DNA of 30,229 bases from contig JAPMTY010000126.1 of NCBI GenBank assembly GCA_026552835.1, forward strand, positions 1 to 30,229. The letters run 5' to 3'. How positions within the stretch are numbered: the first letter of the stretch is position 1; the number at the start of each line of letters is the position of its first letter. Under the pieces are notes generated by a model, which saw only the letters and a program-made list of their open reading frames with translations, searched no databases and was not told the origin of the DNA. Below, piece by piece: positions 33 to 13,957 of the stretch. This stretch comes from Candidatus Methanoperedens sp. (GTDB taxonomy: Archaea; Halobacteriota; Methanosarcinia; Methanosarcinales; Methanoperedenaceae). A program made the translations under genes and the position numbers.

Positions 33-100
33 CTTTGCGTCCTTTGCGCCCTTTGCGGTGAAAAAAATCATGCACCGCAAAGAACGCAAAGAGCGCAAAG
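33..100. repeat. Inverted repeat with 9-nt period, solo copy
   Basis: Left arm 33-60 carries CTTTGCG at 33, 42 and 51; right arm 73-100 carries its complement CGCAAAG at 76, 85 and 94. Both arms keep an exact 9-nt period and pair at 25 of 28 positions around a 12-nt A-rich loop. There is no ORF inside. It resembles in design the arms that flank the GxxExxY gene at 10668-11177, although the repeat unit differs. Confidence 0.85.
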
Positions 101-10523: not shown

Positions 10524-10667
10524 ATATTAGTGTCGGGGCTGAAATTGTATCTATATCGGTACTAAGCGGGAACTCATGGTATATACAGAATTTAAGGATA
10601 GCAGCGATGATTAATTCAAATTTTATTACTTTCACAATGCCCTATCTAAGAGTATAAAAAGGGCAAA

Positions 10668-11177
10668 CGAAATAGAACGCGGATTGCGCGGATGACGCGG
10701 ATACCCGCAGATCGAATTATCCGGTGTCCATTAAAAGGAGATACTATGTTGTATTCAGAAATAACAGATAAAATAATCAATTCGTTTTACAAAGTCTATA
10801 ACATTCTGGGTTATGGCTTTTTGGAAAAAGTTTATGAAAATGCCCTGGTAATTGAATTAGAAAGTGCAGGTTTCCAGGTTTTGCAGCAGCAAAATATCAA
10901 AGTTTATTATGAAAATCAGGTAGTTGGAGATTATTTCGCAGATATTATTGTGAATGATTTGATAATTTTAGAAATAAAAGCGGCTGAAGGTTTGAGAGAC
11001 GAAAATAAGGCTCAATTGATCAATTATCTAAAAGCTACCAATAAGCAAATCGGGCTTTTGTTTAATTTTGGTAAAAAACCCGATTTCAAAAGAGCGATCT
11101 TTTCCAATGAAAGAAGGGAAATATCAGAAACCGAAGCCTCAAATCCGCGTGAATCCGCGTCATCAGCGTTCTATTCG
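10668..11177. mobile_element. GxxExxY gene enclosed by terminal inverted repeats
   Basis: The left end (10668-10712) reads CGAAATAGAAC followed by CGCGGAT at 10678, 10687 and 10696 and CGCAGAT at 10706. The right end, read on the other strand, has CGAATAGAAC (11168-11177) followed by CGCTGAT (11162-11168), CGCGGAT (11153-11159) and CGCGGAT (11143-11149). Units recur every 9-10 nt. The unit of about 510 bp encloses exactly one gene, and the right repeat encodes the last residues of its product. I see no recombinase, so it may move in trans or by an undescribed route. No clear target-site duplication is visible. Confidence 0.6.
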
Positions 11178-11186
11178 TCTAGATGA
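10746..11186 (+). CDS. GxxExxY protein (PD-(D/E)XK nuclease-like)
   Basis: A 146-residue protein. It shows the signature GFLEKVYENAL (GxxExxY) and then FADIIVNDLIILEIKA, which fits the D...ExK core of the PD-(D/E)XK nuclease superfamily, followed by QLINYLKAT and IGLLFNFG, all typical of the family. Function in the cell is not established. The ATG at 10746 is chosen because AAAAGGAG stands 5 nt before it; an earlier in-frame ATG at 10692 lies inside the left terminal repeat and lacks a ribosome site. The last 15 or so residues (SNPRESASSAFYSSR) are encoded by the right terminal repeat and probably are not part of the fold. The surrounding inverted repeats suggest a mobile or selfish unit. Confidence 0.88.
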   Translation: MLYSEITDKIINSFYKVYNILGYGFLEKVYENALVIELESAGFQVLQQQNIKVYYENQVVGDYFADIIVNDLIILEIKAAEGLRDENKAQLINYLKATNKQIGLLFNFGKKPDFKRAIFSNERREISETEASNPRESASSAFYSSR

Positions 11187-11189
11187 ATA

Positions 11190-11405
11190 CTATTTTCTAT
11201 AACCTGACAACCATGCCAATAACCCAGTCCTTTCGCTATCATGCTTTAACACATGCAGGAAAGAGGACGCAGATGCTAACTTAGGCGCTTGTCCTTTTAA
11301 GGGGAAGCGCGAAACGGTTGCGTTCGTCCGGCGTGTTTGTTTATTAGAAATGTAGAACAACTCAACAACGTCCCCATATAACCTTTTTTTCGAGTCGTTC
11401 TTCAA
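11190..11405 (-). other. Doubtful 71-codon ORF over a strong hairpin
   Basis: An open frame that could encode a 71-residue basic peptide. I doubt that it is a protein: there is no clear ribosome site, no domain, and the frame is crossed by a strong hairpin, GCGCTT(11285-11290)..CCTT(11293)/AAGG(11299)..AAGCGC(11305-11310). The stretch SRFPLKGQAPKLASAS looks to me like a peptide that appears in database translations of repeated DNA of this archaeal group; that is a recollection and not checked. It may be a multi-copy repeat or a structured RNA. It directly adjoins the GxxExxY unit. The remaining sequence to 11512 is AT-rich with no other feature I can support. Confidence 0.3.
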
Positions 11406-13560: not shown

Positions 13561-13957
13561 GAAAAAATTAGCCGCAGATGATGGCGCCCAGAGTCACGCC
13601 TCTGGAGGGCGTGTCCACGTCGACTGTCACGCCAGTCGATTGCGTGCACACTTATGCCAGCGTACTGGCATACGTGGACGAGCGTCCTCAAGGGGTGCAA
13701 CCCTTGACGTATGCCTGCGGGCATACGTGGGTGCGGAGTCGAGAACCCGCAGGGTTTCGGCACGATAAACGCAGATTAAATGCTACGGTTTTTAAAAAAT
13801 AATAACACCAAAACCATATTCTCCCACGCGGCGAATTGTTCCCAAAGCAAAACACATATGGGGAACTTAAATACAGGAATAACTTTAAATCCAAAAGAAC
13901 CGATAAGATGCGCTGGATTTGATACTAAAAATCCGCGTTTATCTGCGGTTCGTTTTC
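13561..13957. repeat. Repeat-arm element with split left arm
   Basis: The right arm, 13931-13957, read on the minus strand is GAAAACGAACCGCAGAT followed by AAACGCGGAT. The left arm reads GAAAAAATTAGCCGCAGAT at 13561-13579, then continues as AAACGCAGAT only at 13767-13776. The two halves are separated by the hairpin cluster. Rejoined, the left arm matches the right arm, including the 10-nt unit spacing. The enclosed 13777-13930 stretch is AT-rich and has no gene I can support. The arms resemble the ends of the GxxExxY unit, so this may be a gene-less or decayed relative. Confidence 0.55.
13580..13766. other. Cluster of perfect hairpins inserted in a repeat arm
   Basis: In 187 bp lie: CCAGAG(13588)/CTCTGG(13600-13605); TCGACTG(13620)/CAGTCGA(13633-13639); TATGCCAG(13653)/CTGGCATA(13665-13672); TCAAGGG(13688)/CCCTTGA(13701-13707); ACGTATGCC(13707)/GGCATACGT(13720-13728); AACCC(13744)/GGGTT(13752-13756). 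An outer stem GTCCACG(13613-13619)/CGTGGAC(13673-13679) encloses the second and third, forming a three-way junction. The first two loops are the same hexamer, TCACGC. It is clearly richer in G/C than its surroundings. GAT at 13577-13579 and 13764-13766 could be a 3-bp target duplication. Open frames across it are artefacts of composition. Confidence 0.7.

Follow-up and report, generated by a model that had tools for sequence, protein, structure and literature searches.

REP-associated tyrosine transposases (RAYTs) are enzymes of the HUH type. In the accessible part of its description, the REPIN/RAYT system consists of short inverted sites that form extragenic hairpins and constitute miniature, non-autonomous mobile DNA (Bertels and Rainey 2011, PMC3116915). 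Multicopy sequences of Geobacter, as presented in the available portions of two papers, comprise palindromic families and direct repeats of 6-42 nt that are intergenic, often with several per region; for those of G. metallireducens the binding of global regulators was proposed (PMC2996986, PMC2700814). Excerpts of another report propose a mobile origin for 23S rRNA intervening sequences carrying an S23/four-helix open reading frame (ORF), and mention heptameric repeats upstream of the Coxiella S23p gene (PMC4990558). Here we describe an element of Candidatus Methanoperedens sp. in which a gene encoding a GxxExxY protein is associated with two inverted arms of short repeated units. It lies on contig JAPMTY010000126.1 (assembly GCA_026552835.1), whose positions 1 to 30,229, i.e. 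the whole stretch analyzed, are referred to as the window. The element is most likely a one-gene mobile unit without a known transposase, similar in organization to the REPIN/RAYT system.

As in that system, to the extent of the partial account cited above, the GxxExxY sites form extragenic hairpins and are tied to an enzyme gene of the same genome, and gene-less hairpins of the type that flanks the enzyme gene are present. Unlike REPIN/RAYT, the sole gene of the unit encodes a PD-(D/E)XK nuclease, the arms consist of three to four 7-nt sites spaced by 8-10 nt with the gene between them, and the elements occur in archaea and many bacterial groups. Because the enzyme belongs to another family, the element is not a REPIN/RAYT member. 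Compared by description, the Geobacter palindromic families resemble the GxxExxY hairpins in being intergenic and often grouped; the available portions of both papers make no tie to a GxxExxY gene (PMC2996986, PMC2700814). The rRNA intervening sequence, as outlined in the excerpts, is likewise a small unit with one small non-transposase gene, inverted ends and short tandem repeats by the ORF, but differs in protein fold, location in rRNA and excision from RNA by RNase III (PMC4990558). The window element encodes a protein of another family, and the window contains no rRNA match.

The arms of the window element (Table 1) pair as inverted repeats over 26 nt with 85% and over 23 nt with 87% complementarity. 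An arm profile derived from the 80 loci introduced below matches them with 31.2 and 29.0 bits (E 2.6e-9 and 1.2e-8), and the next-best match in the window scores 10.3 bits; this result is not independent, since the training loci include L001, a 90% identical relative from a Candidatus Methanoperedenaceae genome. L001 is the closest relative found, its protein being 94% identical to that of the window. A preliminary description of this DNA, made from the sequence alone, had stated that CGCGGAT arms with a period of 9-10 nt frame the gene precisely. The inverted arms and the unit spacing are correct, but the framing is looser, since a gap of 33 nt separates the left arm from the ATG and the right one overlaps the gene. 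The right arm is in frame, as described, although it covers approximately residues 133-144 of 146 and not the last 15. Such tail coding looks incidental: in 45 of 137 arm-labelled elements the reading frame extends beyond one or more right-arm units, and in four beyond all of them. It was rejected as a designed feature because it concerns only a third of the elements and residues 125-145 are disordered in the structure model.

The likely start codon, ATG 10746, is preceded by AAAAGGAGATACT, and an alternative ATG (10692) falls within the left arm. Only two Pfam/NCBIfam families match the window protein (E 0.001), namely PF13366 (E 4.9e-39, 133.8 bits versus a cut-off of 22) and TIGR04256 (E 7.4e-38, 129.5 bits versus a cut-off of 35). 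D...(D/E)xK and QxxxY are the motifs of PD-(D/E)XK nucleases of the RecB/Cas4-like kind. Alignments place D66, E76, K78, Q90 and Y94 in the window protein; in 75 aligned sequences the last four are invariant and D66 is found in at least 90%. Judged by these residues, the GxxExxY protein keeps the active site of RecB/Cas4-like members of the PD-(D/E)XK superfamily. Its predicted fold is closest to PDB 4ic1 (SSO0001), a Cas4, and its PADLOC Cas4 match is weak (E 0.0073). Cas4 carries iron-sulphur cysteines, whereas the translated window protein (146 aa) contains no cysteine for such a cluster. A further difference from Cas4 is that the neighbours of GxxExxY genes belong to diverse families (no search was aimed at CRISPR genes). 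Sequence searches of solved structures returned no credible match (three for one protein at E 0.078-0.9 and one for a profile at 0.48). The nuclease gene is the only ORF of at least 90 aa in the stretch 10563-11282; this unit lacks a DDE transposase and so does not qualify as a DDE insertion sequence; the absence of a transposase noted in the preliminary description is thereby borne out.

The arms are associated with GxxExxY genes in general. We collected the 80 best GxxExxY matches from a scan of genome contigs, selected by the protein alone; judging from the record titles, they come from one archaeal family and over ten bacterial groups. Each locus was given a model-free score, namely that of the best local inverted match of the 300-nt upstream flank with the 300-nt downstream flank of the gene, with at least 14 counted as a pass. 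After removal of eight loci with less than 300 nt on one or both sides, 57 of 72 GxxExxY loci passed, compared with 5 of 234 control ORFs taken from these loci, and the top control ORF (L016, score 21.0) sits between two arm hairpins. The score is blind to unit periodicity, and a few passes (e.g. L323, L339) look non-periodic. Further GxxExxY copies in the same genomes passed in 54 of 68 cases (two of 70 loci dropped), about 20 of the 68 being places already among L001-L080. Among loci from two phyla, chosen by family score from 99 genomes each (two of 57 dropped), 44 of 55 passed, whereas none of 26 control ORFs and none of 55 shuffles did. By the preliminary description, its reading would fail if most GxxExxY loci lacked arms or if arms were equally frequent around unrelated genes; neither is the case, as approximately four-fifths of the tested loci have inverted arms, which are rare at control ORFs.

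A profile built from one half of the loci detected both arms in 28, one arm in seven and none in two of 37 held-out loci (three of 40 were too short), and gave no match in shuffled sequence preserving base content only; the hold-out is not strict, because the seed was written once 25 loci, including some of the test set, had been read. Over 149 kb of the test loci away from the gene, this profile found 14 matches, of which 10 belong to forward/reverse pairs. Phage records yielded no GxxExxY gene, none of 16 pattern matches in viral contigs was confirmed, and the gene is rare on plasmids. GxxExxY matches also occur inside an 883-codon open frame (G340:C9:91044-91385, G367:C1:72354-72692, G351:C22:338277-338615), perhaps fused or domesticated.

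The closely related set of arms has the consensus AATAGAACGCGGATGACACGGATTAAACGGATTTACACGGATT, with GGAT nearly every 10 nt. Family-wide, the unit approximates C-R-C-N-N-A-T/G (e.g. CACGGAT, CGCAGAG, CGCAAAG), mostly with 8-10 nt spacing. Units are alike inside one element, equally within and between its arms, and elements differ from each other. The match of left unit i with right unit i (0.60 of 165 comparisons) is no better than that with other units (0.61 of 471), so we read the units as protein sites rather than stem partners, and stem pairing as a selected feature is unsupported. A few spacer columns are somewhat alike between left and right arms.

Arm class and protein lineage change together. 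The protein tree comprised 179 unique proteins, 141 of them arm-labelled, after exclusion of duplicates, short proteins, the four tandem-domain loci and rows containing three or more stops. On this tree the arm class changes 27 times, compared with a mean of 55.9 and a minimum of 49 in 200 trials with shuffled labels. For the three main arm classes outside the close set (66 loci) there are 15 changes versus 31.1 after shuffling (minimum 27). Pairs from different genomes with at least 55% protein identity share their arm class in 2,532 of 2,924 cases, and same-genome pairs below 55% in 3 of 20. The arms are still recognizable where proteins differ by 25-45% and hosts differ by phylum.

The elements are mobile. 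Genome G290 contains two copies (L392 and L430) at unlike places that are 95.1% identical over 530 bp, and their common sequence stops at the end of the right arm. Both arms of these copies have the same orientation, an exception to the inverted layout; the arms are also direct in a second copy pair (L414 and L415, 88.2% over 645 bp). At one intergenic site in the genus of G005, the element is present in 7 of 18 genomes and absent from 11 (one of 19 genomes, with weak matches only, was left out). Several of the empty sites among L346-L356 hold other short palindromic repeats, e.g. TCGGACCGGTCTGAC, at the same intergenic place. In Flavobacterium odoriferum (G014) the L077 element separates two genes that overlap stop/start in L112, L113 and L114 of a draw from its genus, and none of 29 other loci fetched for this site has room for the gene, as judged by coordinates; L128, L130, L134 and L139 have hairpins of another type there. 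The empty Flavobacterium site permits an 8-bp duplication, the sequence being too diverged for proof. By blastn, L001 and the window share the stretch 10563-11282, and the surroundings of L001 match the window nowhere else except through the arm. The family of small mobile units suggested in the preliminary description, without a known transposase, is supported by the recent copies, the empty sites and the gene-less hairpins.

Gene-less hairpins are widespread. A 21-nt arm pattern (up to two mismatches) was found in 18 of 20 genomes, 83 times in G002, and the reversed pattern 0 or 1 times. All 40 selected regions contained a forward/reverse pair of 60-144 bp overall, having been selected because they already looked paired in the pattern list. 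In G002, 10 of 24 hairpin regions have the flank GGTTAAGAGAAAAACCG within two mismatches. Several hairpins of this genome (L245-L264, L281-L284) are nested in a larger repeat that starts with CATTCGTCATCGGTTAAG and ends with its near-inverse; given the common flank and the nesting, the G002 hairpins were rejected as a source of element ends. A pattern for another arm type was applied to a draw of 199 Flavobacterium genomes, with arms beside the gene included in the counts and kinship ignored in the statistics. More than three matches occurred in 82 of 161 gene-bearing and 0 of 38 gene-less genomes, or 29 of 66 versus 0 of 24 among genomes of 3.0-4.4 Mb, and arm matches correlated with gene copies (Spearman 0.66). 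In L376, L377, L385 and L388 of this draw, the loop of hairpins of one unit class seems to contain hairpins of a different class. At L354 and L358 two directly oriented complete hairpins enclose the gene, an arrangement from which a solo hairpin could form by recombination, and at L045:2700-3700 the element is located within a tandem hairpin array with the nearly identical short linker CCACTC.

Two repeats elsewhere in the window had been linked to the element in the preliminary description (Table 1). The solo repeat at 33-100 is a real hairpin of another unit type, and arms resembling it flank GxxExxY genes at L145, L298 and L299. The split arm placed at 13561-13957 is reduced to a single 14-nt pair. 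A palindromic repeat at about 13579-13763, parts of which match L002, interrupts or adjoins the CGCAGAT arm. A similar repeat interrupts hairpins L252 and L264 of another archaeon, as if hairpins were landing sites.

Table 1. Coordinates of the GxxExxY element and of related repeats in the window
Feature	Position	Strand	Remarks
GxxExxY protein gene	10746..11186	+	146 aa, PD-(D/E)XK nuclease superfamily; TIGR04256 and PF13366
Left arm	10671..10712	+	four units: CGCGGAT at 10678, 10687 and 10696, CGCAGAT at 10706; spacing 9, 9 and 10 nt
Right arm	11143..11175	-	three inverted units at 11143, 11153 and 11162; overlaps gene 3' end, approximately residues 133-144
Stretch common to window and L001	10563..11282	+	90% identity; possible full mobile unit of the archaeal branch
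Gene-less hairpin	33..100	.	CGCAAAG unit type; arms 33-60 and 73-100, 28 nt, 86%
Possible remnant hairpin	13764..13943	.	CGCAGAT/CGCGGAT type; 14-nt arms 13764-13777 and 13930-13943, 152 nt apart

Among arm-labelled elements for which each neighbour (longest-ORF call) was no more than 700 nt away, both neighbours lie on the strand of the gene in 61 of 91 cases, only the upstream one in 23 and only the downstream one in three, while both are opposed in four (61 versus 4, binomial p 4e-14). The other ORF pairs at these loci, read on the element strand, comprise 85 '++', 19 '+-', 19 '--' and 13 '-+'. The first unit begins a median of 10 nt past the upstream stop codon (n=83; quartiles 2 and 25.5). 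The window element is placed more loosely, about 147 nt from the upstream stop and with an opposed downstream gene. Neighbouring genes are diverse (the 127 upstream ORFs belong to 101 families and the 106 downstream ORFs to 87), and there is no conserved partner gene. Since the elements closely follow same-strand stop codons, the bacterial gene probably relies on read-through transcription.

We propose that, after recognizing its own site array, the nuclease pairs one arm with the other and processes the ends, with host repair finishing the insertion; we put the probability of this reading at roughly 0.6. The element would be a Cas4/RecB-like PD-(D/E)XK nuclease gene between two arms, each with about three to four 7-nt sites (C-R-C-N-N-A-T/G) standing approximately one helical turn apart. 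The protein would bind these sites, bring both ends together and cut or trim the DNA at the arms. Host repair would then join excised or copied DNA into a break, so that no fixed target duplication would be expected. Gene-less hairpins may have been mobilized in trans or left by gene loss. The preliminary description suggested that the nuclease could act on the arms, which is indirectly supported by the joint change of arm class and protein, the gene-dependent arm matches (in the draw from one genus) and the retained active-site residues; association, co-variation and mobility are observed here, and binding, cutting and joining are steps that we infer.

Several observations qualify or weigh against this proposal. 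Arms and gene are physically linked, so shared descent contributes to their co-variation. In the Flavobacterium draw, arm matches also track genome size (0.57), and all 43 genomes of at least 4.5 Mb have the gene. The identity between the window and L001 reaches about 108 nt past each arm, hence the arms need not be the ends in the archaeal branch. Archaeal loci have a common AGTATAAA before the left arm, a candidate TATA box, so read-through may not hold there. The search for target duplication in 46 bacterial elements (lengths 4-12, 32 tests) gave no convincing signal (best z 2.7); among 49 elements, a 2-nt match reached z 5.3 but lies within the conserved terminal AATA/TATT, outside which the next best was z 2.9. 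Tandem-domain GxxExxY genes (L148-L151) are without inverted arms according to the score. Periodic arms are moreover not exclusive to GxxExxY and may be the product of a more general process: among loci of four-helix-bundle genes (TIGR02436, L181-L209), a set without its own control, 19 of 28 score at least 14 (two of 30 dropped), with 7-8 nt units (e.g. TTTTCAG, CAATTGA, GTTCAAC) that are different at each locus and a few AT-rich matches, e.g. L192. Finally, archaeal locus L003 (1560-1640, 2300-2380) has an outer inverted repeat, GGTAGTGTCC...GGACACTACC, beyond the arms and an 8-bp direct repeat, GGAAATTC, around it, and L002 (2740-2820, 3470-3560) has a similar outer repeat with a direct repeat matching in 7 of 8 positions.

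These outer repeats suggest that a conventional transposase may carry some units, and they favour the view that the nuclease is a passenger, with DDE transposases moving larger inverted-repeat units in trans and the arms having another role. The common flank and the nested position of the G002 hairpins point the same way. We nevertheless regard this explanation as unlikely. The short distance to the preceding stop codon in bacteria leaves little room for outer ends, the bacterial elements show no convincing duplication, and the sequence common to L392 and L430 stops at the arm; moreover, the match between arm class and protein and the gene-dependence of the arm matches would be left unexplained. 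No outer repeat of the L003/L002 kind is present among the inverted pairs of the window.

A role of the arms in RNA seems somewhat less probable still. According to this explanation the arms would pair across the gene in a polycistronic transcript and be cut by RNase III, as in 23S rRNA intervening sequences, and the DNA repeats would be by-products. It is consistent with the same-strand position after stop codons, with the periodic arms of four-helix-bundle (S23) genes, a kind known from such intervening sequences, and, in the excerpts of that report, with the heptameric repeats before the S23p gene (PMC4990558). However, units resemble their pairing partners no more than they resemble other units, gene-less hairpins are found apart from the gene as well, and an Rfam search of the window found no family, rRNA included. 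Least probable is a defence or regulatory module, in which a Cas4-like nuclease would be controlled by, or would spare, chromosomal arm sites: the closest fold (4ic1) and the weak PADLOC match suit it, but no conserved partner gene adjoins, many gene-less arm sites exist per genome, and the gene is gained and lost at given sites.

If the nuclease does process its own arms, the elements could represent a separate mobile class of archaea and many bacterial phyla, a tentative idea that we hold with less than even confidence. In this class a Cas4-like nuclease would replace the transposase or recombinase and would read helical-turn-spaced sites that drift with it, without target duplication; the TIGR02436 elements with 7-8 nt units, including rRNA intervening sequences, would form a parallel class. 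In the open-licence PMC literature, searched mostly as titles and beginnings of abstracts, no paper linking a GxxExxY gene to repeats was found. The gene is present in 39 and 50, respectively, of the 99 genomes in each of the two phylum draws, and in 161 of the 199 Flavobacterium genomes. The proposed activity would assign a role to this functionally uncharacterized nuclease family and account for the origin of intergenic palindromes like those described from Geobacter. DNA movement by a small nuclease acting through arrayed short sites would constitute a new way for genomes to change, and the matched series of arms and proteins would be a natural data set on the evolution of nuclease DNA specificity.
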